From positions 248,001 through 312,000 of the forward strand of contig NZ_FMAT01000003.1 of NCBI RefSeq assembly GCF_900094805.1: 64,000 nt of DNA, written 5' to 3'. The translations under genes were made by a program, and so were the position numbers. The stretch is from Arthrobacter sp. NIO-1057. GTDB taxonomy: Bacteria; Actinomycetota; Actinomycetes; Actinomycetales; Micrococcaceae. Below the pieces are notes generated by a model, which saw only the letters and a program-made list of their open reading frames with translations, did not search any database and was not told where the DNA came from. Positions 12,577 to 61,345 of the stretch are shown here, in pieces. Positions within the stretch are counted from its first letter, which is position 1; each line of letters begins with the position of its first letter.

Positions 12577-12629
12577 ATGCGCAGGCCTATCCCAGTTAGT
12601 GCACAGCCTGCGCGTTTAGAGTTATAAGT

Positions 12630-12699
12630 ACCTCATGAAGGTGCGAGTGATGACAAAAGTTTTGGTCCCGATGCTTCGGCATCGGGACCAAACTTTTTT
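12630..12699 (+). ncRNA. Repeat-terminator element, copy A (candidate small RNA)
   Basis: The conserved block ACCTCATGAAGGT then GCGAGTGATGA occupies 12630-12653. A TAGAGT box lies at 12617-12622, exactly 7 nt before it, and ACAG at 12603-12606. Only about two bases later a strong hairpin begins (TTTGGTCCCGATGC, TTCG loop, complementary arm) and ends in six T's near 12698. The block itself can fold (GTACCT with AGGTGC, loop CATGA). The element lies between the racemase and the convergent DUF1275 gene. The reading as a ~70-nt RNA started by its own promoter is inference; it could also be a terminator preceded by a conserved motif. Confidence 0.55.
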
Positions 12700-12739
12700 G
12701 TACAGAATCTAGGCGTGCGGCATCTATGAAAGTCAGGTC

Positions 12740-13459
12740 CTAGTTTGCTTGAGCCATTTCATGAGCATCAGCGTTCTGCTCCTGTTGGCGCGAGCGTTCC
12801 CCAAAGAGCGCTACGCCAATGGCCAAGACACCTGTGAACAGGACGCCTAGGCCAATGTGTACCTGCAAGAACCCAGCGCCTGCGGCCGCACCGATAAGAA
12901 TGAGTGCCACTGCCAGCAAGCGTCGTTCCCAATGCTTGCCACTACCGCCACCCAATGGGGAATCCGCGGCGAGGCCGGTCAACGTGGAGGTAACCACCAC
13001 CGTGGTGACATCTTTAACCGCAAGGTGACGCGCGGTGGCGGCCTGTAGCCCCATGGCTGCTGCGATAAAACCAGTAACAGACAAGGCCGCTGACTCGGAG
13101 ACATTCTGTACGCCAGCGAATAATGCGAGCGAGGTCAGCGTCAGGCAAACACCCACCGCTGCGATTAGCGCGGTAGTGCGTCGGCTCCAGCCTGCAGCTT
13201 CACTTTTTAGTACGCGTCCAGCAATGGCTGCGCCGAGCACAAAACCCACCAAGGCAATGAGTGGCCCGAGAACTGGCAGACCGTCGGCGCCCATGAGTGC
13301 CATTCCAAGAATCACGACATTGCCGGTCATGTTTCCGGTGAAGACCCTGTCCAGACCTAGGTAACCGACGGCGTCGATAATTCCTGTTGAAAAGGTCAGA
13401 ACAAGCATCAAAATCAGATGTGTTCTCGCTGGGTCTCGGGGTTTGAGGGCATTAGGCAT
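12740..13459 (-). CDS. DUF1275 (YoaK-like) membrane protein
   Basis: This is an integral membrane protein of 239 residues with about six helices. The first helix region FSTGIIDAVGYLGLDRVFTGNMTGNVV is the DUF1275 signature, and a later AAAMGLQAATARHLAV with VTSTLTGL is the second conserved block. Family members are widespread in bacteria and uncharacterised. It is monocistronic, with ATG at 13459 and a weak ribosome site. The C-terminal tail after residue 220 is polar. Confidence 0.85.
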   Translation of the reverse strand: MPNALKPRDPARTHLILMLVLTFSTGIIDAVGYLGLDRVFTGNMTGNVVILGMALMGADGLPVLGPLIALVGFVLGAAIAGRVLKSEAAGWSRRTTALIAAVGVCLTLTSLALFAGVQNVSESAALSVTGFIAAAMGLQAATARHLAVKDVTTVVVTSTLTGLAADSPLGGGSGKHWERRLLAVALILIGAAAGAGFLQVHIGLGVLFTGVLAIGVALFGERSRQQEQNADAHEMAQAN

Positions 13460-13585
13460 AGTGGTTTTCTTTCGCTGCGGTCGGATCTGTGCCTAGCGTA
13501 GGGCACCACCATCTGATCCCCCACGCATGTTGCGAGCACACTTCACATGAACAGTTTCGTTACGACGCCCCCTTTTCCCGAGCGC

Positions 13586-13627
13586 ACAAAGAATCCCTGC
13601 AACCACGCGGATGCAGGGATTCTTTGT
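13586..13627 (-). terminator. Terminator of the NmrA-like gene
   Basis: A perfect 15-bp stem, ACAAAGAATCCCTGC (13586-13600) with GCAGGGATTCTTTGT (13613-13627), lies 12 bp beyond the stop of the minus-strand oxidoreductase gene and includes its own A/T-rich base. Confidence 0.75.
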
Positions 13628-13638
13628 CTACGAATTGT

Positions 13639-14325
13639 TTAGCTGATCGCTTCGGTGATCGGGGTGGAACCGTCGTAGAAGTTCACCGTAGCGCGCACTG
13701 CTGCTTCGGTATCTACAACGTGGGTGATCACCTCGGCCACGTTCTCACGCGACACCTTGCCATTCTCTGGCGCAGGGGCCTGTCCATCAACATTGCCCTG
13801 TTCATCGGCCAGCTGGATCTGCTTGCTGGCAGGATCCAGGGTCAGGGCACCGGGGCCAAGAATGGTGTAGTTCAAGTCGCTCTCACGCAGAACTGCATCG
13901 GCGTCATGCTTTGCCTTGGCATAGGTGTAGAAAGAGTTTTCTGGGTCAAGCTGGTCAACATCCACCAAAGCCCGCGAGTAGGAGACCATCACGAAACGAG
14001 CCACACCAGCTTGCTTGGCTGCTTCAATGGAGCGAACGGCCGCATCAAAGTCCACGGCGCGGGTGCGCTCTTTATTTCCACCGCCGGCACCGGCCGAGAA
14101 GACGATCGCAGAGGCACCAGCGAATGCATTGGCGAGCTGATCAACATCAGCGTTTTCAATATCAAGTACCACCGGGTTGGCACCCGTTGCGGTGATCTCT
14201 GCGGAGTGGTCAGGATTGCGAATCAACGAATCAACGGCAAAGCCACGGGCAACCAACTTGGGCGCAGCCAGCAAAGCCACCTTGCCATGGCCACCAATAA
14301 GGACTACTCGACGTTCTTCAGACAT
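13639..14325 (-). CDS. NAD(P)-binding oxidoreductase, atypical SDR (NmrA/YwnB-like)
   Basis: The protein has 228 residues with one Rossmann domain. The cofactor loop VVLIGGHGKVA at residues 7-17 and the strand ending RFVMVSYSRA near 120 mark the atypical SDR5/NmrA group, which binds NAD(P) but often lacks the Tyr-Lys catalytic pair of classical SDRs. Possible roles are flavin or quinone reduction or redox sensing; none can be chosen from sequence. It is a single gene with ATG at 14325. Confidence 0.75.
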   Translation of the reverse strand: MSEERRVVLIGGHGKVALLAAPKLVARGFAVDSLIRNPDHSAEITATGANPVVLDIENADVDQLANAFAGASAIVFSAGAGGGNKERTRAVDFDAAVRSIEAAKQAGVARFVMVSYSRALVDVDQLDPENSFYTYAKAKHDADAVLRESDLNYTILGPGALTLDPASKQIQLADEQGNVDGQAPAPENGKVSRENVAEVITHVVDTEAAVRATVNFYDGSTPITEAIS

Positions 14326-14508
14326 GTACTACTCCTTCTGATCACTGTTCTTACTTCCCTACTCTGGGCATAACCCCGATGAGTCAACGACTATTCCCGA
14401 AACGTCTGGGGCACCAATCTGGCAATAGACTCAATGCCAGTTTCAAACCAGTTTCATCGGGCGTAGCCTCGAAATATAGTTTGAACAATCAACCCTGGAT
14501 GAACGCTG

Positions 14509-14724
14509 ATGAAGCATAAAACCCTGAATCTAGAACTGAGCAATGATCAGTTCGCCGACCTCACCAACGCCTTGGAAGACCATCGGGACTATTTCAAAAA
14601 GCGGGCCGATGAAGCGCTGATGGGCTTCGGTCTAGATACCGGTTATTGGAAGTCGCGCGCCGAGGAAGTCCAAGAATTACTCGGCTTGGTCCTGTATTCC
14701 GCACGGCAAGAACAACAGCGCTAG
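14509..14724 (+). CDS. Small conserved-looking hypothetical protein
   Basis: This is a soluble, mostly helical and acidic 71-residue protein. The first third (LNLELSNDQFADLTNALEDHR) and the end (RAEEVQELLGLVLYSARQEQQR) would form amphipathic helices. No domain was recognised. ATG 14509 has no clear Shine-Dalgarno sequence. The gene lies 6 bp from the convergent GNAT stop. It is probably real because composition and length are typical of small actinobacterial proteins. Confidence 0.5.
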   Translation: MKHKTLNLELSNDQFADLTNALEDHRDYFKKRADEALMGFGLDTGYWKSRAEEVQELLGLVLYSARQEQQR

Positions 14725-14730
14725 CTGAGC

Positions 14731-15324
14731 CTATGGCCGGCGTCTTTGTGCCCATTCGTCTTTGAGTATGGCATAGGAATACCCATCCAACCATTGGCCA
14801 CTGCGGTGCAGGCCGCTGGCTTTTTGATGGGATTCTCGGCGCATCCCCACGCGTTCCATGAGATTGAAAGATGGCACGTTGGCGGTGAAGCATTCGGCCA
14901 CGACCCGGCGTAATTTCAGATCTTCAAAACAAATCCGCAGCACTTCGCTCACCGCTTCGGTGGCGTAACCCTGACCGGTAAATTGCGGGTTAAAACTCCA
15001 GCCGAGCTCGGCTTCTACCGATTTCGCCTGCTCGACCACTTCGCGTTGGCCCCACGCATCCTTGACGTACAGCATCACCGTCCCGATCAGTCGCGGGCCC
15101 TGTGCGGTTTCGATCTCAACAGCAATATCTCGGTCAATTTTTCCTGACTCAAGAAATTGTGTTTTATAGGTTTCGAAGTCTTCGGGTGCGGCGGTGATCC
15201 ATTCAGAGACCTCAGGGAGTCTGCGATAGCTCCAGGTGGCTTCCAAATCCTGTTCAACTAATCTGCGCAAGGTCAGTCGTGCGGTGGTGATCGGCCAGCG
15301 AACTTCGGCCAAGGAAGCAGTCAT
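14731..15324 (-). CDS. GNAT acetyltransferase, RimJ/RimL type
   Basis: The protein has 197 residues with the GNAT fold of the ribosomal-protein N-acetyltransferase branch: RLTLRRLVEQDLEATWSY at the start, the acetyl-CoA loop FTGQGYATEAV near residue 118 and ANVPSFNLMERVGMRRE near 150. The acceptor could be a protein N-terminus or a small amine such as an antibiotic. It is monocistronic and its start faces the siderophore operon across a 300-bp intergenic region that holds the IdeR box. Confidence 0.8.
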   Translation of the reverse strand: MTASLAEVRWPITTARLTLRRLVEQDLEATWSYRRLPEVSEWITAAPEDFETYKTQFLESGKIDRDIAVEIETAQGPRLIGTVMLYVKDAWGQREVVEQAKSVEAELGWSFNPQFTGQGYATEAVSEVLRICFEDLKLRRVVAECFTANVPSFNLMERVGMRRESHQKASGLHRSGQWLDGYSYAILKDEWAQRRRP

Positions 15325-15553
15325 GATCGCATCCTATCGAAACTTCGGCGCGATTATGACGGCTCAAGGCTAGCAATTTTCCGCTTACTTGACAGCTAAA
15401 TAAAGAATATTTTTAGTGGTTATTTTCTGCCTGATGTACCAGTCAACAGCTAGCTGACGCGCAATCGCAGGCTAATTCACAAACAATTGCGTTCAAAATT
15501 TCCCACAAAGTGACACAGCTGACAGTAATTGGATTTGCTTTCATTAGATCAGA

Positions 15554-15572
15554 TAAGGCTAAGCTAATTAAC
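15554..15572 (+). promoter_or_regulatory. IdeR/DtxR-type iron box upstream of siderophore importer 1
   Basis: The 19-bp stretch beginning TAAGGCTAAGCTAA matches about 12 of 19 positions of the IdeR consensus. It overlaps a possible -10 (GATAAG 15552-15557) set 17 bp from TTGGAT (15529-15534), so bound iron-loaded regulator would block transcription. Iron repression of the downstream operon is inferred from this site and the gene functions. Confidence 0.6.
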
Positions 15573-15623
15573 AGATCATTCGCTCGCGCAACCAACGAAG
15601 GTTGCCATAATACGAAGGAAACC

Positions 15624-16610
15624 ATGGCCTCCATGAAGCTTCGCGCTGCAGCTCTTCTTAGCATTGCCGCCCTGTCCCTGACCGCTTGCGGTTCCAACAC
15701 CGATACCGCGGCAGATGCCAACGCGCAGGACACCAAGACCGTCAACTTCACCGACAATGACGGCGAAAAGAGCGTCCAGGTCCCAGCCAAGTCAGTGGTT
15801 GCTACCGATAACCGCACCTTTGAGACCTTGGACGAATGGGGCATCAAGCTCTCGGCAGCTGCAGTATCGCTCATGCCAGACACCATTTCCTACACCCAGG
15901 ACAAGGGCATCCTTGACCTGGGCAGCCACAAGGAACCAAACCTTGAGTCCGTGGTCACCGTAGATCCAGACCTGATCATCAACGGTCAGCGCTACACCCA
16001 GTACGCCGACAAGTTCAAGGAACTGGCTCCTAACGCCACCGTTGTTTCCCTGGACCCACGCGACGGCGAACCATTCAACACCGAGCTGGAACGCCAGATC
16101 ACCACCCTGGGCGAAATCTTCGAAAAGCAGGACGAAGCCAAGAAGCTGGTTGACGACTTCGAAGCAGCCCAGAAGCGCGTCACCGATGCCTACAACACCG
16201 AGGACACCGTCATGGGTCTGATCGCATCCGGCGGCGAGCTGGGTTACTCGGCACCAGGCACCGGCCGCACCGTTGGCCCAATGTTCGACTTCCTGAACCT
16301 GACCCCAGCACTGGAAATCGAAGATTCCTCCACAGACCACGAGGGTGACGACGTCTCGGTTGAGGCCATCGCCAAGTCCAACCCAGACTGGATCATCGTC
16401 ATGGACCGCGACGCAGCCGTGGCTGCCGATGGCGCAGACTACAAGCCAGCCAAGGATCTGCTGGAAAACTCCGAAGCACTGCAGAACGTGACCGCTTCGA
16501 AGGAAGGCCACGTTGTGGTCATGCCAGCTGATACCTACACCAACGAAGGTATCCAGACCTACACCGAATTCCTCAACGAATTCGCTGATGCTCTGGAAGC
16601 AGCCAAGTAG
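15624..16610 (+). CDS. Siderophore ABC transporter, substrate-binding lipoprotein (YclQ/CeuE-like)
   Basis: The protein has 328 residues. The N-terminus is a lipoprotein signal (KLR, hydrophobic core, lipobox LTAC at about residues 18-21), so it is anchored outside the membrane. The body is a class III periplasmic-binding fold: VATDNRTFETLDEWGIKL, then DPDLIINGQRYTQY, resembling YclQ/CeuE proteins that bind petrobactin or other catecholate siderophores. ATG 15624 has GAAGGA upstream and gives the signal peptide; the frame before it is not coding. It is the first gene of a four-gene importer with an IdeR box in its promoter. Confidence 0.88.
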   Translation: MASMKLRAAALLSIAALSLTACGSNTDTAADANAQDTKTVNFTDNDGEKSVQVPAKSVVATDNRTFETLDEWGIKLSAAAVSLMPDTISYTQDKGILDLGSHKEPNLESVVTVDPDLIINGQRYTQYADKFKELAPNATVVSLDPRDGEPFNTELERQITTLGEIFEKQDEAKKLVDDFEAAQKRVTDAYNTEDTVMGLIASGGELGYSAPGTGRTVGPMFDFLNLTPALEIEDSSTDHEGDDVSVEAIAKSNPDWIIVMDRDAAVAADGADYKPAKDLLENSEALQNVTASKEGHVVVMPADTYTNEGIQTYTEFLNEFADALEAAK

Positions 16611-16633
16611 TAAATATGCATTGCCCTCAGTTT

Positions 16634-16666
16634 TAGTGGCGACGCCGGATTCCGGCGTCGCCACTA
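16634..16666 (+). terminator. Strong hairpin between binding protein and permease genes
   Basis: A 15-bp perfect stem, TAGTGGCGACGCCGG with CCGGCGTCGCCACTA, has a 3-nt loop and is extended by CAGTT/AACTG. It has no long U-run. It is likely a partial terminator or 3'-end stabiliser, so the binding protein is made in excess over the permeases. Confidence 0.6.
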
Positions 16667-16703
16667 GAACTGTTTTCCCACCACACTTTTCCACGGCGGC
16701 ACC

Positions 16704-17684
16704 ATGACAACCACGACCACACCGGTCAGGGCCAATTCCAAGGTCTTCACCGGCAAACTCGCCCTAGGCATTCTCGGAGTCCTCATACTCCTGGCCTTCT
16801 CGCTCTTCACCGGCGTTTACGACATCTTTGGCAATGACGACGGCGCACAAATGTTCGCCATCACCCGCATTCCACGCACCATTGCTTTGGTACTCGCAGG
16901 AGCGGCCATGGCCATGAGCGGGCTGGTCATGCAATTGCTCACCCAAAACCGTTTCGTGGAGCCCACCACCACCGGCACCACAGAATGGGCCGGACTGGGG
17001 CTGCTGACCATGCTGGTCGTATTCCCCAGCGCCAGCCTGCTGGCCAAAATGGGGGTTGCGATCACCTTTGCCTTTATCGGCACCATGGTCTTCTTCCTCT
17101 TCTTACAACGCGTTTCGCTCAAGGCCTCGCTAACCGTGCCCATTGTTGGCATCATGCTTGGCTCGGTGGTGGGCGCGTTCTCCACATTCTTCGCGTTGAG
17201 CACCGACAAGCTGCAGTCCTTGGGCATCTGGCTGGCCGGTTCCTTCACCTCGGTGATCCGCGGCCAGTACGAAGTGTTGTGGATTGTCGCCTTGGTTGCC
17301 GTGGCAATCTACATCGTCGCCGACCGATTCACCGTGGCAGGGCTTGGCGAAGAAATCGCCACCAACGTGGGCCTGAACTACCGCCGTGTGATGCTCTTGG
17401 GCACTGCGCTGATCGCCATCGCCACCGGCGTGGTCACCGTTGTCATTGGCAACCTGCCGTTCTTGGGTCTGATCGTTCCAAACATCGTCTCGTTGGTTCG
17501 CGGTGATGACCTGCGCAGCAACCTGCCGTGGGTGTGCCTGTTGGGTATCGCCATCACCACGGTCTGCGATCTTGTAGGCCGAACGATCATCATGCCCTTC
17601 GAGGTTCCGGTCTCCTTGATCCTCGGCGTCCTTGGCGCGATCGTCTTCATTTTCCTTCTGTTGAGGCAGCGTAAAGTTGGCTAA
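16704..17684 (+). CDS. Siderophore ABC transporter permease (FecCD family, YclN-like)
   Basis: This is a membrane protein of 326 residues with about 9-10 helices. The segment ITRIPRTIALVLAGAAMAMSG near residue 55 is the family signature (RLPR-ALLAG-ALA-SG type), and GNLPFLGLIVPNIVSLVRGDDLR near residue 255 is the conserved loop that contacts the ATPase. It pairs with the next permease to form the import channel. Closest in style to YclN/CeuB rather than FepD. Confidence 0.87.
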   Translation: MTTTTTPVRANSKVFTGKLALGILGVLILLAFSLFTGVYDIFGNDDGAQMFAITRIPRTIALVLAGAAMAMSGLVMQLLTQNRFVEPTTTGTTEWAGLGLLTMLVVFPSASLLAKMGVAITFAFIGTMVFFLFLQRVSLKASLTVPIVGIMLGSVVGAFSTFFALSTDKLQSLGIWLAGSFTSVIRGQYEVLWIVALVAVAIYIVADRFTVAGLGEEIATNVGLNYRRVMLLGTALIAIATGVVTVVIGNLPFLGLIVPNIVSLVRGDDLRSNLPWVCLLGIAITTVCDLVGRTIIMPFEVPVSLILGVLGAIVFIFLLLRQRKVG

Positions 17685-17688
17685 TCTC

Positions 17689-18723
17689 ATGACTACTCCC
17701 GTGACCTCAACGCACCATCTTGGGCGCTCTGCCGGTCCTCTCCCCACCGCCAAAAACCGCAAACGCTACTGGCTGACCCTCGGGATTCTGATTGCGCTGG
17801 CAGTGCTCTTCGCCTTTGGTTTGCTGGCTTGGGATAACCCCATGCCTGCGGGTTCCACCGGCTTCTGGGTGATCGCTAAGCTGCGCGCCAGCAACATCTT
17901 GACCATGGTGATCGTGGCCCTGTGCCAATCTATTGCCACCGTTGCTTTCCAAACGGTCACCAATAACCGCATCATCACCCCGTCCATCATGGGCTTCGAA
18001 TCCCTCTACCGGGTGGTGCAGACCGGGGCGGTCTTCTTCCTGGGCGTCGCTGGCATTACCTTCTTCACCGGGGTCGGCCAGTTCGTCTTGCAGGTGGCCC
18101 TCATGGTGGGTCTGTCCGTGGCTTTGTACGGATGGCTGTTGTCGGGAAAGCTCGGCAATATTCAGATCATGTTGCTGGTGGGCATCATCATCGGTACCGG
18201 TCTGGGCTCGGTATCAACCTTCATGCAGCGCCTGCTGACTCCCAGCGAATTTGACGTGCTCACCGCACGCCTCTTCGGTTCGATGGCCAATGCAGATATG
18301 AGCTATATGCCGGTAGCCATTCCGCTGGTAATCATTGCCGGCGGCTATTTGGTGCTCTCTTCAAAGAAGATGAATATCCTCGCCCTAGGCAAGGAAACCA
18401 CCATCAACCTAGGCATCAACCATCGCCGCGAGGTCATGAAGACCCTCTTCTTCGTGTCCATTTTGATGGCGGTGACTACCGCGCTGATTGGCCCGTTGAC
18501 CTTCTTAGGCTTCCTCGTTGCGACACTGGCCTACCAGCTCGCTGACACCTACGACCACCGTTACATCTATCCGATGTCATTCCTTGTCGGATTTGTTGTG
18601 CTGGCCGGGGCCTACTTCATCATGAAAAACCTGTTCTACGCCCAGGGCGTGGTAGGCATCATCATCGAAGCCGTGGGCGGCATTACCTTCTTGATCTTCA
18701 TCCTGCGAAAGGGCCGACTGTGA
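17689..18723 (+). CDS. Siderophore ABC transporter permease 2 (FecCD family, YclO-like)
   Basis: The protein has 344 residues with about nine helices and a short N-terminal cytoplasmic tail. ILTMVIVALCQSIATVAFQTVTNNRIITPSIMG is the YclO/CeuC-type variant of the family signature, and GPLTFLGFLVATLAYQLADTYDHR is the ATPase-contact loop. ATG 17689 is preferred over an upstream TTG because the TTG lies inside the previous gene. It ends 4 bp inside the ATPase gene (GTGA overlap). Confidence 0.87.
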   Translation: MTTPVTSTHHLGRSAGPLPTAKNRKRYWLTLGILIALAVLFAFGLLAWDNPMPAGSTGFWVIAKLRASNILTMVIVALCQSIATVAFQTVTNNRIITPSIMGFESLYRVVQTGAVFFLGVAGITFFTGVGQFVLQVALMVGLSVALYGWLLSGKLGNIQIMLLVGIIIGTGLGSVSTFMQRLLTPSEFDVLTARLFGSMANADMSYMPVAIPLVIIAGGYLVLSSKKMNILALGKETTINLGINHRREVMKTLFFVSILMAVTTALIGPLTFLGFLVATLAYQLADTYDHRYIYPMSFLVGFVVLAGAYFIMKNLFYAQGVVGIIIEAVGGITFLIFILRKGRL

Positions 18724-19475
18724 TTACCCTGAACGCTGTCAGCAAAAAGTACAATTCTACCGTGGCCATCGGCCCGGTGACCCTAGAAATCCCCACCGGT
18801 GGGTTGACCGCCCTGGTAGGCCCCAACGGCGCCGGCAAATCCACCATGCTCACCATGGTGGGACGCCTGTTAGGCATTGACGAGGGAAGCATCGAAGTCT
18901 CGGGCTACGACGTCACCAAAACTAATTCCAAAGATCTGGCCAAGATCGTCTCGATCCTGCGCCAGGAAAACCACTTCGTCACCCGACTGACCGTGCGCCA
19001 GCTGGTGGGCTTTGGACGTTTCCCTCACTCCAAGGGACGACTGAACCAGCAGGATGAGGAAATCATCTCGCGGTCCATCGACTTCCTGGATCTGGGAGAG
19101 TTGGAAGGCCGCTACCTCGACGAGCTTTCTGGTGGGCAGCGTCAGCGTGCCTATGTGGCCATGGTGTTGGCACAGGACACCGATACCGTTCTCTTAGATG
19201 AACCGCTGAACAATCTGGACATGAAGCACTCGGTCATCATGATGCAGCACCTGAAGCGTGCAGCCCAGGAACTGAATCGCACCATCGTGATCGTGCTGCA
19301 CGACATCAACTTCGCCGGGCACTATGCCGACTACATTTGCGCCATGAAGCATGGCAAGGTCGTGCAGTTTGGTAGCCCGGAACAGATCATGCAGGATGAG
19401 ATCCTTACCGAAGTATTTGAGACGCCGGTAAATGTGGTCCCAGGTCCCAATGGTCCCTTGGCGGTGTACTACTAA
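18720..19475 (+). CDS. Siderophore ABC transporter ATPase (YclP/FecE-like)
   Basis: This 251-residue ABC protein has Walker A GPNGAGKST (about 34-42), signature LSGGQRQRAYVA (about 136), Walker B VLLDEPLNNLD (about 157) and switch histidine in VLHDINFA (about 190). GTG 18720 overlaps the permease stop. It powers iron-siderophore import with the two permeases and the lipoprotein upstream. Because the second siderophore importer at 33-36 kb has no ATPase, this subunit might serve both; that is a guess. Confidence 0.92.
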   Translation: MITLNAVSKKYNSTVAIGPVTLEIPTGGLTALVGPNGAGKSTMLTMVGRLLGIDEGSIEVSGYDVTKTNSKDLAKIVSILRQENHFVTRLTVRQLVGFGRFPHSKGRLNQQDEEIISRSIDFLDLGELEGRYLDELSGGQRQRAYVAMVLAQDTDTVLLDEPLNNLDMKHSVIMMQHLKRAAQELNRTIVIVLHDINFAGHYADYICAMKHGKVVQFGSPEQIMQDEILTEVFETPVNVVPGPNGPLAVYY

Positions 19476-19525
19476 GGCTCAAAAGGCTGGTGCTCTAAGC
19501 TAGACCCGAAAGTAGAAGGACACTA

Positions 19526-19558
19526 GTGAACAGCACACTCTTAAACACCGGATGACCC
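19526..19558 (+). other. Nine-codon frame ending in TGA just ahead of fetB, in the same frame
   Basis: AGAAGGA followed by GTG at 19526 starts nine codons (MNSTLLNTG) and stops at TGA 19553-19555. Two codons later, in the same frame, comes ATG 19559 of the FetB-like gene, which has no ribosome site of its own. This is either a nonsense mutation near the true start with reinitiation, or a short upstream frame that couples translation. Confidence 0.5.
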
Positions 19559-20266: not shown

Positions 20267-20678
20267 CTTTACTTTCGAAGGGTGGTTTCTATCGATCATT
20301 GCCACACCATGAACGATCAGGAGTTGCAACCACCGTTAGAGCTCGCCCACCAGATCAGGAGGATCACGGGCGTCAATCTCGAAGCTACGACCGGCCAACA
20401 CGTTTGGTGTCATACCCGGCCCCAGATGATAAGGATTGGGTCTAGGCACAAGGACCCTGCCTCGCTCTAGCAATATATGCATGTATAAGTTCTTGTTATA
20501 CGCCACTATACTTTCACATACATGTGCAAAGCGTCGCCCGACTTGGGCTCACGCACACCCCAGAGACCGTGCCAACTTCCAAAGTAAATTCGAAGCTGTG
20601 CACTAGCAGGTTTCGAGAAAATATAGTCGCGTAAAGCCATCGCCACACGCGACCACATTTTCCGTACGGTTTGTTTTT
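20267..20678. other. 412-bp gap with only weak candidate small ORFs
   Basis: The region is locally AT-rich. On the plus strand there is a frame at about 20309-20470 without a ribosome site. On the minus strand a 50-codon frame is listed separately. No hairpin with a U-run, operator or recognised element was found. It may hold the terminators of fetB and of the minus-strand operon in a form not visible by eye. Confidence 0.4.
20506..20658 (-). CDS. Candidate 50-residue small protein after the SDR gene
   Basis: ATG 20658 opens 50 codons ending in TAG 20506-20508, starting 20 nt past the SDR stop. The peptide is basic and aromatic-rich (contains LRDYIF, YFGSWHGLWG) without a membrane helix. The only ribosome site is a weak GGA next to the ATG. 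It might be a tenth gene of the catabolic operon or chance. No family was recognised. Confidence 0.25.
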   Translation of the reverse strand: MWSRVAMALRDYIFSKPASAQLRIYFGSWHGLWGVREPKSGDALHMYVKV

Positions 20679-35990: not shown

Positions 35991-36074
35991 TTTCTCGCTT
36001 TCGCACCGAGATACATTGCCACTGCGAAGCCTGTGCTCAGCCCGAGCATAGAAAGCTTGAGTAACGTAGTAACT

Positions 36075-36143
36075 ACCTCATTGAAGGTGCGAGTGATGAT
36101 CGTTGAAATCCCCGCCGGTATAACCGGCGGGGATTTCGCTTTA
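36075..36143 (+). ncRNA. Repeat-terminator element, copy B (candidate small RNA)
   Basis: The conserved block is at 36075-36099 with one extra T in the loop (ACCTCATTGAAGGT). TAACGT lies at 36062-36067, again 7 nt upstream, and ATAG at 36048. The hairpin GAAATCCCCGCCGGT (36105-36119) with ACCGGCGGGGATTTC (36123-36137) follows within five bases. The inserted T lengthens only the loop of the small stem and keeps both arms, which fits a structural role. Lies between the binding-protein gene and the convergent carbonic anhydrase gene. Confidence 0.55.
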
Positions 36144-52077: not shown

Positions 52078-52091
52078 AAGATCAGTCGAGG

Positions 52092-53321: not shown

Positions 53322-53348
53322 CTCAGTTTCCTATCTGTAGAAAAGTTT

Positions 53349-54575: not shown

Positions 54576-54628
54576 CTTCGTTCTCCTTAGGACTGTGGAT
54601 TCCGAAGGACGCAGAATTTTCTGCAGAT

Positions 54629-54713
54629 CCATCGAACCTGGCGTTAGCACTTACTGCGGGATGCAGGTTTGCTGCGACGTCTCGGAGCCAGGTCTCTCAG
54701 CCGCTCTGGATGG
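54629..54713 (-). ncRNA. SAM-I (S-box) riboswitch
   Basis: Read on the minus strand, the leader contains CATCCAGAGCGGCTGAGAG, then CCTGGCTCC, GCAGCAA and the 3' motif AAGTGCTAACGCCAGG, in the order of the SAM-I consensus. The closing stem P1 pairs CCATC (plus-strand 54709-54713) with GATGG (54629-54633). Downstream, GCAGAA/TTCTGC forms a small stem, and TCCTT may pair with the AAGGA of the ribosome site at 54583-54587, suggesting control of translation. It precedes the SfnB-like pair. The identification is by eye; a covariance-model search would settle it. Confidence 0.8.
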
Positions 54714-54963
54714 CGTGTTCTCTCAGTGAATCACCGTGCGATGGCTGACGGAAGTCACGAGGTCACAGGACGGAATATCGTCATTTTTCGACACGTTCAC
54801 CACCCTGAAACGGCAATAAATTCCCGTCATATTTCCCCTTATTAAGTCAGGCAGGCGAGTTGCTTGCTTTCGAAGAAAAAACGAAGATCCTCAAGAGAAC
54901 CATGTTGAGAAATATGGCCACTGTATAGACTGAATATAAATACACCAGCAAGGGGAAGCTTCA

Positions 54964-55329
54964 ATGGACCCAATGAACACCATCAGCCTGATGTTTGGGT
55001 TGGTCATACTGACCGTGACCGCCAGCATCTTGGCGCCGATGACTGCCTCAGGCCGACTCAAGCGCAACACCACAGTGGGCATTAAAACCCGTCACACCTT
55101 ATCCAGTGATGAAGCGTGGTTGGCCGCTCACCACCATGCGGCACCCACGCTCAAAATGACAGCGTGGATTGGATGGATCTTGTTGGCCATCGCCGCAGTA
55201 CTTTGCTTTATGCAGAAGTTCCCGTGGGCGCTGACGGTAACGGCCGCCGGCTTCTGCCTCAGTCTTTTGCTTTTGCTCGTGGCAGGATTCCGCTCCAATA
55301 AGATTGCCAAGCAGTACCCGAGTAGTTAG
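54964..55329 (+). CDS. SdpI-family membrane protein
   Basis: The protein has 121 residues with three helices. GRLKRNTTVGIKTRHTLSSDEAWLAAHHHAAPTLK between helices 1 and 2 is the SdpI signature (R-N-x-x-x-G-x-R-T, S-D-x-x-W-x-x-x-H). B. subtilis SdpI gives immunity to the SdpC toxin; most actinobacterial members are of unknown role. ATG 54964 has GGGGAAG upstream. No toxin gene is adjacent. Confidence 0.85.
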   Translation: MDPMNTISLMFGLVILTVTASILAPMTASGRLKRNTTVGIKTRHTLSSDEAWLAAHHHAAPTLKMTAWIGWILLAIAAVLCFMQKFPWALTVTAAGFCLSLLLLLVAGFRSNKIAKQYPSS

Positions 55330-55402
55330 TCGCTAGTGTCTCTCGTGGCGAAGATTCGACCGCGAAGGATCAAAAATATCCGTCTGCCAACAGGCTAGTT
55401 CT

Positions 55403-56476
55403 TTAGAAGATCTGCAACTGCCCCAAGGCAACTCGCGCATAAATCGCGTGCTGTAGGCGTAACGATTCACTGGTCAGGCGCGTATCCACACCGGTGACCT
55501 GCCCGATGCGCTCCAGCCTCTGAATCAGCGTATTGCGGTGAATGTGTAAAACCTCGGCAGCTTGCGACATCGACGCAACGCTTGCCACCACCAAGAGGGT
55601 TTTTGCTTGTTCTTGATTCAATTCCTGCGCAGGAATCGCAAGATATTTGAGGTTGGATGCTGGTGTGCGCGCGATAGCCACCGCGATCTCTTCGGTCCAC
55701 AGATCACGATGCGCCTGACCTGCAATCAATTCAGGACGCGCCACCAGGGTGCGCAATACTTCGGCCCGGGCCAAGAGCTCACCGGCATCTGCCATCCCCG
55801 GACCACCAAGATAGCGATCATTGGGTCCAACAACGTTTTGGCCATGATCTTCACTAGCCTTGCGAAGTCGCCACCTCGCTCCAAACAACGTCACCCAAGA
55901 GGTACTTACCCCTTGGGTTCCTGGCTGTTCAAAGGCTGACTCTTGCCCTGCCCCTTGTCCTTTGCCCACCAGGCACACTTCCAAGTGCAGGTGCCCGCTG
56001 AGCCCATGTGCCTGAAGCATCCGGTCAATGATTTCCGGTGCGACATTCCCGGCGAGCAAGGCGGACAAAATATCCCTGGCCTCGGCCGCCCGACGAGCGC
56101 TACGCGAATGCTCACGTTCCTGCGCGACCAGCAGTTGCACGGTCAGCGCAATCAGGTCAGCTAGTGGTTCCACCTCATGGGGTGCACCGGTAAGACCAAT
56201 GACCCCACACACGCGGTCATTAATCTTCAGCGGAAGATTCACCCCGGGCTGGGTTCCGGCGGTTTCATCGCCGTGAGTGACTCGGATGACCCGCTGGTCT
56301 CGAAGTACTTCAATGCTTCCTGCGTGCAGCGTTCCGATGCGCGAGCTATCGCTAGAAGCAATGATTATTCCATGCTCATTCATAATGTTCACATGGCGAT
56401 TAATCGTTGGTGAAATGGTGTCGACAACCTTTTGCGCTAGTGCGCTGGCTAGTCGTGGTTGCTCCATTTCGCTCAT
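55403..56476 (-). CDS. cdaR: CdaR-like sugar diacid/glycerate regulator
   Basis: The protein has 357 residues. The N-terminal sugar-diacid-recognition domain (INRHVNIMNEHGIIIASSDSSRIGTLHAG, GVNLPLKINDRVCGVIGLTG) is followed by a C-terminal PucR-type HTH (LLVVASVASMSQAAEVLHIHRNTLIQRLERI). E. coli CdaR activates glucarate, galactarate and glycerate genes. A glycerate kinase gene lies 2 kb away, so glycerate is the most likely signal here; the kinase is not in the same operon. Confidence 0.87.
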   Translation of the reverse strand: MSEMEQPRLASALAQKVVDTISPTINRHVNIMNEHGIIIASSDSSRIGTLHAGSIEVLRDQRVIRVTHGDETAGTQPGVNLPLKINDRVCGVIGLTGAPHEVEPLADLIALTVQLLVAQEREHSRSARRAAEARDILSALLAGNVAPEIIDRMLQAHGLSGHLHLEVCLVGKGQGAGQESAFEQPGTQGVSTSWVTLFGARWRLRKASEDHGQNVVGPNDRYLGGPGMADAGELLARAEVLRTLVARPELIAGQAHRDLWTEEIAVAIARTPASNLKYLAIPAQELNQEQAKTLLVVASVASMSQAAEVLHIHRNTLIQRLERIGQVTGVDTRLTSESLRLQHAIYARVALGQLQIF

Positions 56477-56615
56477 GAAGTCATCCTAGCTTCCTGCCCC
56501 AAAAACATGGAGGACTCACCGCGACGCGCATCAAGGTTTCGCACTTTCGTCCTTCACCTTGCCACCGGAGGATGCTAGGCTCACCCCAGTCAAGTATCTC
56601 AAGGAAAGGTTCACC

Positions 56616-56810
56616 ATGAGTTCGGCGATCAGTTACTTAACCGGGGGTTTCCTTGTCTCCTTGCTCGTATCGCTCAACATGACCTGGCACCAGCGCTTAC
56701 CTGGACTACTTGGCCCTGTACTGATCGCGGTGTGCCTGGCGGGGTTAGTTGCCTGCCGTGTCTATACCGCGAAGAATCAACCCCACTGGCAAGATCCACG
56801 CGAAGTTTAG
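56616..56810 (+). CDS. Small two-helix membrane protein
   Basis: The protein has 64 residues with two hydrophobic segments (about 4-22 and 31-50) and a polar tail. ATG 56616 has AAGGAAAGG upstream; an in-frame start at 56559 lacks one. It overlaps the convergent lipoprotein gene by 4 bp. No family was recognised. Confidence 0.6.
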   Translation: MSSAISYLTGGFLVSLLVSLNMTWHQRLPGLLGPVLIAVCLAGLVACRVYTAKNQPHWQDPREV

Positions 56811-57343
56811 GCTGCGTCGCGCTCGCGCTGCACTGCTTGAACCGTGTTGGTGGTGTCCGGGGCAAAGGCGTATAACTTTCCGTCTGCCACGTGCACCCAG
56901 AAACGACCGCAGAGGTCGGTTGTTTGGTTCTCAGCGTTTTCTGGCCACCAGTCAGCTTCGAGGGTTCTGGTTGACGAGATTTCTTTTGCCGCAAAATCTT
57001 TGGTTCGCGAATCCGAGGCGTAGGCCTTCTTCAGTTCTGCTTCCGATGGTTTGCCCACGGTGTTCAGTGCTAGACATTTATCGCTTGGCACGTCTGCGCT
57101 GTAGTCCATCACAAAGATTCTTTCCATCCCCGTATTGCGCTGCATCAGCTTGATGTTGCTTCCGCCTTCAGGCACCCAATTGGGCAGTAGTCCGGAGGAA
57201 ACAGCCTCTTGGGAGGACTTGGCAGTCTTTTCGGTGGATTCATCATATTTATCCGTCATGAGGTCCGAAACGGAACAACCGGATAGCAACAGGGCCATGG
57301 GTGCGGCGAACAATGCGGTGGCGACATACTTTTTCTTGATCAT
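56807..57343 (-). CDS. Hypothetical lipoprotein
   Basis: The protein has about 178 residues. IKKKYVATALFAAPMALLLSGC is a clear lipoprotein signal with the cysteine at about residue 23. The mature part has two more cysteines (DKCLAL, DLCGRFW) and no recognised domain. ATG 57343 places the signal correctly; the longer frame from 57415 would bury it. Isolated gene, unknown role. Confidence 0.65.
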   Translation of the reverse strand: MIKKKYVATALFAAPMALLLSGCSVSDLMTDKYDESTEKTAKSSQEAVSSGLLPNWVPEGGSNIKLMQRNTGMERIFVMDYSADVPSDKCLALNTVGKPSEAELKKAYASDSRTKDFAAKEISSTRTLEADWWPENAENQTTDLCGRFWVHVADGKLYAFAPDTTNTVQAVQRERDAA

Positions 57344-57501
57344 GATTCCATCGTAGAAATCGACCACCACTAGGCACATCGTCTTCCTGATGGAAAAGAT
57401 CGCGCTACGCTTCATCCCCTCGGTGGAGCAGTGCTCAACATTTCTCCTACTTCACCGCCTAAACTGACAGCAACGACCTCTCGTCCCAGGAGTGATCAGC
57501 C

Positions 57502-58344
57502 ATGGTGCCCACCGAAAAGATTGCCGTCACCGGATCCACCGGGGCGCTCGGCACCCTCGTTGCCCGCGAGCTGGCCGAACGGCACATCCCGCAGCGGCTA
57601 TTGGTCCGCGACACATCCCGGGCGCCGAAACTCCCAGAAGCTACAGCCCACAAGTTCGACTATGCAGATGCCTCCACCAGTACCAAAGCTTTAGAAGGTA
57701 TTGAGGTGCTCTTTATGGTTTCCGCCCCGGAGAGTGATCACCGCATCCAGCTTCACACCAGCTTCATCGATGCAGCACGTGCCGCCGGGGTGAAGCACAT
57801 TGTTTACACCTCTTTCACCGGCGCAGCACCAGATGCTGAATTCACGCTGGCCCGCGAGCACTTCGCCACCGAAGAGTACTTGCGAACTTCCGGGATGCAC
57901 TTCACGTTCTTGCGCGATAGCTTCTATCAGGATTTTTTGCCGGCCTTGGCAGGAGACGACGGAGTCATCCGCGGGCCTGCCGGCGACGGACATTTCGCGC
58001 CGGTGGCCCGAGCAGACGTGGCACGGGCTGCCGCCACCATTCTGGCTTCGCCTTCCGAACATGCCAGCGCCACCTATGAGCTGACGGGACCGCAATCCCT
58101 GAGCATGCATGATGTGGCACAGATCCTCAGTGCCGCACGGGCGCAAAGCATTACCTTCCACAACGAAACCATCGAAGAGGCCTATGCTTCGCGCGCCAGT
58201 TATGGTGCACCGCAGTGGCAGCTTGATGCGTGGGTGAGCACCTATACCGCGATTGCCAGTAATTCCATGGCCAAGGTCAGTGACCACATTGAGATCATCA
58301 CCGGGTCCGCTCCCCGTTCCTTCGCTGACTACCTGCGCAAATAG
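57502..58344 (+). CDS. NmrA-like NAD(P)H:quinone oxidoreductase (QorB-like)
   Basis: The protein has 280 residues with an atypical SDR fold: IAVTGSTGALGTLVARELAER at the start, HIVYTSFTGAAPDAEFTLAREH near residue 95 and LRDSFYQDFLPAL near 140, as in QorB/YtfG and NmrA-like proteins. It probably reduces quinones with NADPH. Its 3' end overlaps the convergent glxK by 16 bp, an unusual tail-to-tail overlap. Confidence 0.83.
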   Translation: MVPTEKIAVTGSTGALGTLVARELAERHIPQRLLVRDTSRAPKLPEATAHKFDYADASTSTKALEGIEVLFMVSAPESDHRIQLHTSFIDAARAAGVKHIVYTSFTGAAPDAEFTLAREHFATEEYLRTSGMHFTFLRDSFYQDFLPALAGDDGVIRGPAGDGHFAPVARADVARAAATILASPSEHASATYELTGPQSLSMHDVAQILSAARAQSITFHNETIEEAYASRASYGAPQWQLDAWVSTYTAIASNSMAKVSDHIEIITGSAPRSFADYLRK

Positions 58345-59510
58345 GTGCGCATCACGCTAAAGGCGGTGCGTTCGATCAGTTCTGGGGCCTGATCCGACAG
58401 TTGCTCTAGGCTCGCTGGCCCGAAAGCGATGGAGTAGGCCGCCAGGATCCCCGCCTGATCAAGCTCCTCATCGCTCAGCGCTACCGATCCGGCCACCACG
58501 ATCACCTCGGTTGCTTCACCTGCGGCCTGAAGTACCCCACACACCACCTTGCCGTTGAGGGATTGGCTGTCCAAGCGTCCCTCACCGGTGAGGACCAGAT
58601 CCGCGGCACCTAAGATGCGGTGCGCATCGAGCACCTGCGCCACCAACTCCCATCCGGGGGTCAGGTCCACTTGGAAGTACGAGGCCAGGCAGATCGCCAA
58701 ACCACCAGCGGCACCCATCCCCGGTTGTTCCTTGAGTGTCCTTCCGGTATCTGCTTCAAGTACCTGGGCCAACGTGGCTAACCCACGATCCAGCACCTGT
58801 ACCTGCTGGGCCGAAGCGCCCTTCTGCGGACCAAACACCGCCGCCGCTCCCTGGTCCCCGAGCAAAGGGTTGGTGACGTCGCAGGCGATCTGCCACTGCA
58901 CTTGTGTTGCCCGCGGATCCAGCTGGGAAACATCGACTTTGGCCAGTTTTTCCAGCGCCCCACCACCGGGTGGCAGTTCTTCTCCGTGTTCATCCAGGAA
59001 CGTGGCGCCCAGTGCACCGAGCAATCCGGTACCGCCATCGGTGGTGGCTGAGCCGCCGAGGCACAGGACGATCTGTTGCACCCCGAGGTCCAGGGCGCGT
59101 ATTACCAGTGGGCCGAGTCCCGAAGTACTAGCGTCCAAGGGTTTGCGTGGCACATCGCTGACCTGTGGCAGGCCGGCTGCTTCGGCGGCTTCCACAACAG
59201 CGATCTTCTGGTCCTTGGACAGTCCCAGCCGTGAGGTAACCGGGCGGCCGAGCGCGTCGGTGGTTTCCACGGTGATCGCTTCGGTGCCCCACGCATCGAT
59301 TAGTGCTTCTAAGGTTCCTTCGCCGCCATCGGCAAAGGACAGCGCGGTGATTTCAACCTGCTGGTTGCGGCTCTTCGCCGCCTTGGATACTCCCTGCGCT
59401 AGAGCTTGTGCCACTTCGCTGGCTCGGGCGCTGCCTTTAAAGGAGTCAGGAACGATCGCTACGCGCAGCGGGTCGTGATCTGCTCGGATCATTTTCTGTT
59501 CAGAAGTCAT
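58329..59510 (-). CDS. glxK: Glycerate kinase (GlxK family)
   Basis: The protein has 393 residues of the glycerate kinase type II family. VAIVPDSFKGSARASEVAQALAQG at the start, SFADGGEGTLEALI near 60, CLGGSATTDGGTGLLGALGATFLD near residue 140 and LTGEGRLDSQSLNGKV near 300 are the family blocks. It phosphorylates D-glycerate, the product of Gcl and GlxR, and so links allantoin carbon to glycolysis from a separate locus. ATG 59510 is preferred over 59528. Confidence 0.92.
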   Translation of the reverse strand: MTSEQKMIRADHDPLRVAIVPDSFKGSARASEVAQALAQGVSKAAKSRNQQVEITALSFADGGEGTLEALIDAWGTEAITVETTDALGRPVTSRLGLSKDQKIAVVEAAEAAGLPQVSDVPRKPLDASTSGLGPLVIRALDLGVQQIVLCLGGSATTDGGTGLLGALGATFLDEHGEELPPGGGALEKLAKVDVSQLDPRATQVQWQIACDVTNPLLGDQGAAAVFGPQKGASAQQVQVLDRGLATLAQVLEADTGRTLKEQPGMGAAGGLAICLASYFQVDLTPGWELVAQVLDAHRILGAADLVLTGEGRLDSQSLNGKVVCGVLQAAGEATEVIVVAGSVALSDEELDQAGILAAYSIAFGPASLEQLSDQAPELIERTAFSVMRTYLRR

Positions 59511-59702
59511 GTTTCCCAGCTTAGGCAACGGTACTCGTGGCTCCTATGGTCAATTACCCGGAGTTCGCGAGGGAAAAGTGGCAAGACTATGTGCATCTGA
59601 CCTTGGCAGGTACGAGCAGATCTTTGAAGCAATTTTTGAAGCATGCGAAACGTGAAGCTGAGCCAAAGGGATGGCACATAAAGCGTGGGTAGTGTTTAAA
59701 AC

Positions 59703-59771
59703 ACCTCATGAAGGTGCGAGTGATGATCGTAAGAATTCCCGTTGGATATTGCCCAACGGGAATTCTTCGTT
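59703..59771 (+). ncRNA. Repeat-terminator element, copy C (candidate small RNA)
   Basis: The conserved block is at 59703-59726 with TAGTGT at 59690-59695, 7 nt upstream, and ACAT at 59676. The hairpin AAGAATTCCCGTTGG (59731-59745) with CCAACGGGAATTCTT (59753-59767) follows four bases later. Both flanking genes are on the minus strand, so there is no plus-strand gene for it to terminate. It could however terminate the minus-strand MarR gene that ends at 59786. Confidence 0.55.
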
Positions 59772-59785
59772 AATCAGCTTCTGCA

Positions 59786-60256
59786 TCACTCAGCCTTGAG
59801 ACCTCGTCGCATCTGGCTATAGTCCTCAATATCGTTATTAAAGCGGTGAAGAAGATGCGCGAACTGGTCAATGTCCTTGGCGCTCCAGTCCTCCATAATC
59901 TGCTCAAGCGCGTCGATAGAGGTACCCCGCGCGTCAGCTAACTGTTCGTTTCCATAGCGGGTCAGGGCGATCTTGCGCGCGACATGCCCCTCTGGGTCGG
60001 GGATGCGTTCTAGGTACCCGTCCTTGATGGCCACCGTCACCTGACGTTGCAGGGTTGAACTATCAAGGCGCAGGGCGTGGCTCAACTCGGCAATAGACAT
60101 CGGGCCGGAGCCATCTATGCGGCTCATGATCAGGTATACGCTGCGATCCATGCCGCTGGAGTGGCGGTGTTGGGCGATGGTGTAGCGGCTAAGCAGCATT
60201 TGCTCGTACTCAATATCCGCGATGCGGCTCTTTGATCCGATTTTTCCTTCTGGCAT
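59786..60256 (-). CDS. MarR-family transcriptional regulator
   Basis: The protein has 156 residues. The winged helix (MSIAELSHALRLDSSTLQRQVTVAIKDGYLERIPDPEGHVARKIALTRYG) is clear. It is divergent from a decayed MFS gene, with two palindromes in the gap that look like its operators. It probably once controlled the exporter; whether it has other targets is unknown. Confidence 0.85.
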   Translation of the reverse strand: MPEGKIGSKSRIADIEYEQMLLSRYTIAQHRHSSGMDRSVYLIMSRIDGSGPMSIAELSHALRLDSSTLQRQVTVAIKDGYLERIPDPEGHVARKIALTRYGNEQLADARGTSIDALEQIMEDWSAKDIDQFAHLLHRFNNDIEDYSQMRRGLKAE

Positions 60257-60274
60257 TTTTCCACCTTAACCAAG

Positions 60275-60307
60275 ATATGTATGATACATATTGCATGTAA
60301 CTTACAT
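60275..60307. promoter_or_regulatory. Two adjacent MarR-type operators
   Basis: ATATGTATGATACATAT (60275-60291) and ATGTAACTTACAT (60295-60307) are both perfect palindromes around one central base, centres 18 bp apart. They lie between the MarR start and the MFS remnant. Confidence 0.6.
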
Positions 60308-60326
60308 ATTCACTCGAAGCGTTCCC

Positions 60327-61051
60327 CGTGCCCTCGCTACCGTGTCGGCAACGCTGGGTGTGGGTGGAGCGATCGGCCTGCCACTATCGGCAGCCATCAC
60401 TCAGTTCTCCTTCTGGCGTGTGCTCCCCTACCTCTGTGCGGCCATCACCCTGATCGTCGCCCTGCTGATTTTCAAATTCGTTCCGGTCGCTGGCGCCACC
60501 ACCACCAAATCCAACTTCGACTGGGCCGGGGCCATTGGACTGGGCGTAGGACTGATCCCCCTCATGCTCGGCATCTCTAAGGGCTCACCGGGGCCAAGGG
60601 ACCAAAATTCACCCTAGTCTTGGGCATCCTCATCATGGCTGCCGGTTACGGCGTCGGGCAGTTGGGCATGGGGTCAACCTGGGGTCTGCTCATTACCAGC
60701 TTGGTCATTAACAGTGGCGCGGCACTGGCGTATGGCACCATGCCCACCATCATCATGGGCGCCGTACCGCGGAGTGAAACCGGGGCAGCCAAGGGCCCGA
60801 ACACCTTCATGCGTTCCTTGGGTACTGCCTGCGGTGCGGCCATCATTGGGTTGGTGCTCGACGATATGACCATCGACTTCCATGGCACGGTCCTTCCTTC
60901 CGAAACCGGCTTCCATACGGCCCTCTGGCTCGGCGCTGGGATCACCCTCGCCGCAGCGGTGATCGCCGCCTGCATTCCCGCCGCCAAAAAGCCACCGAGG
61001 TTCGACTTGAAGAGGCAATCCAGAATGCCTAAGCCAAGGAATACATGGTGA
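60327..61051 (+). pseudogene. MFS transporter pseudogene (DHA2-like), internally deleted
   Basis: Two fragments of one transporter remain. The first, to the stop at 60617, covers what is normally about residues 130-230 (RALATVSATLGVGGAIGLP, then FWRVLPYLCAAITLIVALL). The second, from about 60600 to 61051 in another frame, is the C-terminal third (FTLVLGILIMAAG, ALAYGTMPTIIMGAVP, GPNTFMRSLGTACGAAIIG). The N-terminus and roughly the middle third are missing and the join near 60590-60610 shifts frame. The remnant cannot make a working transporter. Confidence 0.75.
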
Positions 61052-61104
61052 GCGTGCAGTGCATGCTTATTGCATCCACAGAGAGCACCCCTAGAGTTAT
61101 AAGT

Positions 61105-61171
61105 ACCTCATGAAGGTGCGAGTGATGACGAAAAACTGGCCCTGTCGGTCTTGCGACAGGGCCAGTTTTTT
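61105..61171 (+). ncRNA. Repeat-terminator element, copy D (candidate small RNA)
   Basis: The conserved block is at 61105-61128 with TAGAGT at 61092-61097 and ACAG at 61078-61081, at the same distances as copy A. TTGCAT (61070-61075) could be a -35 at 16 bp. The hairpin AAAAACTGGCCCTGTCG (61131-61147) with CGACAGGGCCAGTTTTT (61154-61170) follows two bases later. It lies after the MFS pseudogene and 163 bp ahead of copy E. Confidence 0.58.
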
Positions 61172-61267
61172 GCCATTTTTGCGTTCAGCACGCCCGCTGT
61201 CGCATCCATATCCAATGCGCAGTCCCTACTTATTTCGCACACAGGCGGCGCCCCTAGAGTAGTAAGT

Positions 61268-61345
61268 ACCTCATGAAGGTGCGAGTGATGATCGAGAAGC
61301 CCCAGCCTCACCGGAAATTTCCGGCCCGGCTGGGGCTTCGAATTT
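61268..61345 (+). ncRNA. Repeat-terminator element, copy E (candidate small RNA)
   Basis: The conserved block is at 61268-61291 with TAGAGT at 61255-61260 and ACAG at 61241-61244. The hairpin GAAGCCCCAGCC (61296-61307) with GGCTGGGGCTTC (61328-61339) has an inner stem (CCGGAAATTTCCGG, 61311-61324) in its loop. It lies in tandem with copy D and upstream of the SulP gene. No gene lies between D and E, so this copy cannot serve merely to end a gene. Confidence 0.58.

Follow-up and report, generated by a model that had tools for sequence, protein, structure and literature searches.

The window analysed here is the whole 64,000-nucleotide (nt) stretch of Arthrobacter sp. NIO-1057 on contig NZ_FMAT01000003.1 (positions 248,001 to 312,000), and it carries five copies of a short conserved block, each placed between a promoter-like box and a strong hairpin. 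The original prediction had noted that these copies look as short RNAs of one family would, the promoter-like box and the 5′ RNA segment being fixed and the terminator variable. Its five blocks were confirmed at 12630, 36075, 59703, 61105, and 61268, all on the plus strand. The 24-nt block was exact (ACCTCATGAAGGT) at 12630, 59703, 61105, and 61268, whereas the copy at 36075 (copy 2) had one extra base (ACCTCATTGAAGGT), so that the description of the block was one base off at this site. A 16-mer, AAGGTGCGAGTGATGA, was exact in all five copies on the plus strand, against a chance expectation of 0.69 matches at three or fewer mismatches. Direct reading of the sequence also bore out the TANNGT box ending 7 nt before the ACC of the block and the ACAG-like tetramer beginning 14 nt upstream of that box (five of five copies each). 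A strong hairpin followed soon after every block, with fold z-scores of -4.9 to -6.3 and none of 200 shuffles folding as well for any copy. The five hairpins appeared mutually unrelated, as predicted, and orthologs of a given copy mostly retained that copy's own hairpin.

Two models were used in the searches: R1, a covariance model of promoter plus block based on 64 sequences from alignment A1, and R2, a promoter-only model based on 28 sequences of the genus. The features of the five copies, with expectation values (E) of the model matches, are listed below.

12569 to 12622, plus strand: promoter of copy 1, with four CNCAG-type half-site positions (12569, 12580, 12591, and 12602) and the -10 box TAGAGT at 12617-12622; R1 match at 12565-12654, E 2.3e-19; R2 match in the own genome, E 2.9e-10
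12630 to 12699, plus strand: predicted RNA of copy 1, about 70 nt with inferred start and end; 5′ hairpin ACCU/AGGU followed by unpaired GCGAGUGAUGA; terminator hairpin at about 12655-12697, plus strand, with a U run (minimum free energy -31.7, z -5.75)
36014 to 36067, plus strand: promoter of copy 2, with phased half-site positions and the -10 box TAACGT at 36062-36067; R1 match at 36010-36100, E 2.5e-16
36075 to 36143, plus strand: predicted RNA of copy 2, in which the extra base is a one-base loop insertion; terminator hairpin at about 36104-36138, z -5.42
59642 to 59695, plus strand: promoter of copy 3, with degenerate phased half-site positions and the -10 box TAGTGT at 59690-59695; R1 match at 59638-59727, E 3.9e-15; R2 match, E 3.6e-4
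59703 to 59772, plus strand: predicted RNA of copy 3; terminator hairpin at about 59731-59767, z -4.93
61044 to 61097, plus strand: promoter of copy 4, with phased half-site positions and the -10 box TAGAGT at 61092-61097; R1 match at 61040-61129, E 2.9e-18
61105 to 61171, plus strand: predicted RNA of copy 4; terminator hairpin at about 61130-61171 with a U run, z -6.29, and a 19-pair stem by terminator scan
61207 to 61260, plus strand: promoter of copy 5, with phased half-site positions and the -10 box TAGAGT at 61255-61260; R1 match at 61203-61292, E 7.4e-19
61268 to 61345, plus strand: predicted RNA of copy 5; terminator hairpin at about 61296-61339, z -5.04

Distribution of the unit in the Micrococcaceae

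The exact 16-mer occurred in the own genome (3,541,821 bases, 13 contigs) only at the five window sites. Four further sites were present at two mismatches, and one of them is a sixth, divergent copy at C13:147477-147566 (R1 E 1.7e-12). R1 recovered six loci in the own genome (E 1.3e-17 to 1.7e-12, next match E 0.25) and matches throughout the family. Because the R1 loci were gathered by the exact 16-mer or a near-24-mer, the block part of the model is biased toward invariance; its promoter part was unselected except for the TANNNT box.

In the sample of relatives, R1 matched at E <=0.01 in 37 of 58 genomes, comprising all 36 Micrococcaceae, the own genome included, and one of the 22 others. 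The matches were strong in 34 of the 36 family genomes (best E 3.9e-9 or lower) and weak in G019 and G022. The match in G019, a genome inside the family, covered the promoter only and was excluded from the copy count. The sampled family genomes had one to nine R1 matches each. Among the listed genomes of the order sample (297 genomes), 24 belonged to the family and 23 of these matched, G019 weakly; G159 gave no match, and six genomes from outside the family matched weakly (E 0.0026-0.0072). In the class sample (394 genomes), five family genomes matched, G019 was without a match at the stricter limit, and three others were weak (E 0.002-0.004). No strong R1 match was found outside the Micrococcaceae in the relatives, order, and class samples. 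The weak outsiders amounted to eight distinct genomes, all of which were inspected. Four contained promoter-only matches without the block (G039, G222, G243, and G316), two were ambiguous, with boxes present, no clear TANNNT box, and a partial block (G276 and G277), and two contained block-like sequence without boxes (G454 and G595); none was counted as a copy.

At least 117 genome-contig stretches carried the exact 16-mer, and promoter plus block were present in 63 of them, all from genera that we take to belong to the Micrococcaceae. The other 54, mostly from unrelated bacteria and archaea, were counted as chance matches, although they include a few Micrococcaceae copies missed by the search pattern (e.g., L073, L121, and L134). 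Viral contigs with the 16-mer (30 stretches) were also assigned to chance, since among the matches listed the sequence context was different and no promoter was present.

Rfam release 15 (4227 models) gave no match in the window or in 20 loci, and at E <=5 the only match in eight loci was ar14 (E 4.7, 20.6 bits against a gathering threshold of 58.8). The element was not found described in the openly licensed literature, a scope that does not prove it to be unpublished. Judged from sequence, the five window stretches and the sixth copy very probably constitute a real, apparently uncatalogued small RNA family of the Micrococcaceae.

Phased half-sites and the candidate activator

The ACAG-like tetramer upstream of the -10 box was the last of four CNCAG(C) half-sites with an exact 11-base-pair (bp) period, and 10 nt separate its end from the TANNNT box; this phased array of four had been overlooked. 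When CNCAG was scored at three or more of its four letters in 107 non-redundant promoters, peaks were observed in 69, 68, 78, and 92 promoters at offsets of -54, -43, -32, and -21, respectively, relative to the end of the -10 box; the background was 7.3 (standard deviation 1.7). The sole further offset above four standard deviations was -45, with 17 of the 107 promoters. At least two of the four boxes were present in 103 of the 107. The TCACAGC repeats bound by PhoP of Mycobacterium tuberculosis are separated by a strict 4-bp spacer, that is, an 11-bp period, and three or four repeats are bound more tightly, according to the cited passages of PMC4832192; degenerate repeats of the PhoP type are tabulated in the part of PMC3413638 used here. 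Direct repeats of the CACAGC type at this 11-bp period, as in the PhoP-activated promoters of M. tuberculosis, were thus found upstream of the block.

The own-genome regulator L239/L301 scored 280 bits against M. tuberculosis PhoP, and the next named protein, PrrA, scored 176 bits. The recognition helix of this PhoP ortholog reads SIVESYISYLRRK and retains E215, S216, Y217, S219, Y220, R222, and R223. The helix core was identical in 26 of the 27 family PhoP loci read, and that of L323 was not found by the pattern. The ortholog was present in all 38 genomes tested, 10 of which lie outside the family. For a PhoP-like paralog, L238 (218 bits), 10 of the 28 family genomes gave no hit above 200 bits, and eight of these 10 carried strong RNA copies. 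Since the paralog is missing from some RNA-bearing genomes while PhoP is in all those tested, PhoP is favoured, though not proven, as the activator. We infer that the RNAs are transcribed and that PhoP activates them, and PhoP is the likely predicted activator of the family. At L338:2993-5704, the genes downstream of phoP encode first a histidine kinase and then a WXG100 (ESX-type) protein.

On the own genome, R2 matched six RNA genes (E <=8.5e-4) and then gave one weak match (E 0.26). Over 18 genomes of the genus it produced 104 matches at E <=0.1, of which 100 were on RNA copies, three upstream of a single protein gene, and one within an open reading frame (ORF). Among the 100, 98 were assigned by eye to R1 places and two by inspection (G005:C3 and G009:C1:3155694). 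PhoP sites of other kinds could escape R2, whose training set consisted of RNA promoters.

A gene for a 199-amino-acid protein without a Pfam or NCBIfam match (L331:2312-2911 on the own contig C9; also L332, L333, and L336) has a GTG start that follows a TAGAGT or TAGACT box at a distance of 7 nt, with CACAGC-type half-sites upstream at the spacing of the RNA promoters. Two half-sites were clear in L331 and L332 and one in L333 and L336, and the layout recurs in four genomes of the genus. The gene is a possible protein-coding target of PhoP.

Promoters with PhoP-like boxes but no RNA block were also observed in other families, namely at L343:1501-1570, before a 298-amino-acid protein with a twin-arginine-like signal, and in L347, L348, and L351. 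Another, at L255:313-415, precedes a 55-amino-acid frame in a family genome without a strong RNA copy. The four outsider genomes in which PhoP-like box arrays occur without the block are consistent with an older type of PhoP promoter, and the promoter layout seems to be older than the RNA family.

RNA structure and alternative explanations

All five window RNAs were predicted to fold into a 4-bp 5′ hairpin, which is the small ACCT/AGGT stem proposed earlier, a mostly unpaired GCGAGUGAUGA, and a long terminator hairpin; copies 2, 3, and 5 were able to form a 3-4-bp stem within GCGAGUGAUGA. The stretch after the block had a median fold z of -4.6, and z was below -2 in 104 of 128 copies (single-base shuffles).

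Several copies per genome (up to nine) with unrelated downstream hairpins could also arise from a mobile or site-specific repeat inserting next to terminators already present. Many copies, however, lie in syntenic places within the genus, nearly all promoters (103 of 107) include two or more phased boxes, and copy 1, the only copy searched, had no match in plasmid or phage collections. A mobile repeat found mostly without a hairpin, which had been named as the refuting alternative, was likewise not supported, given this synteny and the structure that follows 104 of the 128 copies. Insertion of a mobile element is therefore considered highly improbable.

A class of RNAs, class B, was represented by ten sequences gathered with CCTCCTT in the search pattern, and two-sided compensatory changes were found at 5 of 23 pairs. 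When members were picked by the 5′ part alone, the CCTCCTT (CCUCCUU) loop was present in seven of seven non-redundant members. The own-genome class-B copy lies between an alpha/beta hydrolase gene and an aldo/keto reductase gene. In lipFa1, a PhoP-bound fragment upstream of M. tuberculosis lipF given in the cited part of PMC3413638, 14 of 16 bases match the class-B block by eye; the spacing to the repeats differs from that of the RNA promoters, and the match is possibly due to chance.

A short gene or leader peptide, with AAGGUG-N6-AUG as the ribosome site and the hairpin inside the message, was weighed as another origin of the block. AAGGUG is spaced plausibly from GUG or AUG for a translation start, and copies 3 and 5 have an in-frame stop after the hairpin. 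In 126 sequences collected with a loose pattern, at least one of which is off-family (L077), the open length from the GUG had a median of 35 codons against a null of 31 from shuffles (95% range 24.5-37), and frame 2 behaved alike (34 codons, null 29, range 23.5-35.5). Several relatives have a stop at codon 3, and in a minority of copies another triplet takes the place of the AUG. Coding in this frame was rejected for want of a conserved open frame, and we regard it as very improbable.

Copy 5 begins 145 nt upstream of a same-strand ORF of the sulfate permease family (window 61413-62918, mechanical start), as would be expected if the unit were a cis-acting attenuator or antiterminator leader for the downstream gene. 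The genes downstream of copies 1, 2, and 3 are nevertheless on the opposite strand, and over 98 copies the next gene was on the opposite strand in 51, on the same strand in 39, and not found in 8. This mixed orientation led us to reject a cis leader, which has hardly any likelihood. In the same neighbourhood, the gene for an MFS transporter at window 60281-61051, between a MarR gene and copy 4, appears split in two frames, and relatives have longer frames.

Sequence comparison thus indicates units that have their own promoter and terminator, are non-coding, and are independent of flanking genes, as expected of trans-acting small RNAs. The same comparative evidence, which establishes the family, its promoter layout, RNA structure, and distribution, supports the short-RNA family that the original prediction had envisaged.

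Proposed mechanism and comparison with known small RNAs

We consider it probable, if the mechanism is read loosely, that the copies encode sibling small RNAs which PhoP activates and which pair with mRNAs to repress them. PhoP, an OmpR-family protein orthologous to that of M. tuberculosis, would bind up to four 11-bp-phased CNCAGC half-sites as a head-to-tail oligomer and would activate a promoter whose sole recognisable element is the -10 box. Transcription would run from the A of ACCUC to the copy-specific hairpin, giving an RNA with a fixed 5′ module (hairpin ACCU/AGGU, then GCGAGUGAU) and a variable 3′ hairpin, whose loop would usually be C-rich outside the window's genus and, in one class, would present the anti-Shine-Dalgarno sequence CCUCCUU. 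The sibling RNAs would then repress mRNA translation by short base pairing while PhoP's sensor kinase is active. Pairing and its targets, proposed by analogy with OmrA/B, LhrC, Mcr7, and 6C/B11, are the weakest part of the explanation, and we give the pairing mechanism a chance falling just short of even.

A number of observations weigh against this explanation. For the activator, the contact residues N212 and V213 in the helix of M. tuberculosis PhoP are replaced by S and I, respectively, and the genome has 11 matches to the OmpR-type DNA-binding domain, 10 of them above the cut-off and seven of the proteins read, so that other OmpR-type regulators of this genome may be candidate activators. 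R2, a model trained on the genus, gave no match at 28 phoP loci, and PhoP autoregulation by this promoter type is consequently not indicated. For the RNAs, the U runs after the hairpin are weak in copies 2, 3, and 5, the class-B stem is broken in some pairs (columns 42 and 69, 3 of 10), and a crude ORF caller places 14 of the 98 copies within ORFs longer than 150 amino acids. C-rich loops were found in 53 of 78 copies outside the window's genus versus 4 of 36 inside it (genus assigned by hand); being mostly missing there, they cannot provide a shared pairing mechanism. For the targets, a search of 18 genomes with 12-mers complementary to the conserved stretch, one ambiguous end base being allowed, gave counts similar to those of the reversed controls and revealed no conserved mRNA partner of this 12-nt length. 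The phoP 5′ region had no excess pairing (mean z -0.07 over 27 loci). The best candidate in the window, an acetyltransferase-like gene (named by eye) at 14731-15324, reached z -3.7 in the own genome and was rejected as a target, since the pairing was not kept in four relatives.

The original prediction had suggested that the ACCTC of the block could pair with ribosome sites, a suggestion that was not supported, as the 5′ block showed no special pairing to the 16S tail. With the canonical tail, 10% of shuffles paired as well as the 24-nt block and 64% as well as the unpaired part. The class-B version paired better, with 2.6% of shuffles as good. Direct support for mRNA pairing is weak, and either the seed would be short or the constant module would have another partner.

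The second option leads to a reading in which the RNA family is the same, the constant 5′ module binds a protein or the ribosome as a decoy or sponge, and only the C-rich loops contact mRNAs. It would account for the failure to find a conserved 12-nt complementary site and for AGGUGCGAGUGAU, which is nearly unchanged across genera while the following part varies, an invariance that the searches used to gather copies favoured. It would also fit the unit, the conserved GGTGCGAGTGATGA, being carried twice in tandem, sometimes with one degenerate, in L084, L134, and L182, all three titled Micrococcus, and in L246 and L247. Against it stand the unexceptional pairing of the block with the 16S tail relative to shuffles and the lack of a known binding protein, and we judge such a module distinctly unlikely.

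Little of the post-transcriptional control in actinobacteria has been mapped, and few small RNAs of this phylum are understood. The units described here make up an RNA set that spans the family, appears to be uncatalogued, and has a clear promoter code and PhoP as its candidate activator; in it, several RNAs keep one 5′ domain while their terminators diverge. More speculatively, and with less chance than the pairing mechanism, PhoP could be a dedicated RNA switchboard in the Micrococcaceae. Its most recognisable promoters would drive modular RNAs almost exclusively, each joining a constant 5′ domain (protein-, ribosome-, or common-target-binding, sometimes doubled) to a terminator hairpin that can be exchanged and that has either kept or lost an anti-Shine-Dalgarno loop. 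Because related families show the same layout without the RNA, sometimes directly before a reading frame, an older PhoP promoter would have captured the RNA module. In that case, the constant 5′ module would represent a new type of shared RNA domain.

The explanation by PhoP-activated sibling RNAs has partial counterparts among known systems. Like the loops proposed here, the C-rich hairpin loops of the actinobacterial 6C/B11 RNA repress an mRNA (cited part of PMC10470900), whereas the Rfam model of 6C RNA had no match in the window, in 20 loci, or in eight loci at E <=5. LhrC1-5 of Listeria monocytogenes are multi-copy small RNAs that depend on the two-component response regulator LisR and use a CU-rich loop to pair with the Shine-Dalgarno region, as described in the cited part of PMC5880928 (see also PMC4132741). 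They belong to a different phylum and are likened here by description, not by sequence; in the Micrococcaceae family, in contrast, it is the 5′ block that stays constant, and most copies in the window's genus lack C-rich loops. The enterobacterial sibling RNAs OmrA and OmrB owe their activation to a response regulator of the OmpR family; they pair through conserved terminal regions and diverge in their central parts. They are Hfq-assisted, however, number two, come from a different phylum, and have known targets (cited passages of PMC12692685). In M. tuberculosis, the Mcr7 gene is the most prominent PhoP-regulated site, and its transcription is PhoP-dependent (cited passages of PMC4038636). 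Mcr7 is, like the predicted family, a small RNA under PhoP; according to the same passages it is about 350 nt long, confined to the M. tuberculosis complex, and predicted to act on tatC via a 33-nt loop, and they mention no sibling set with a shared 5′ block. If the explanation proposed here is true, the PhoP-to-small-RNA wiring of Mcr7 would extend to a second, distant family.

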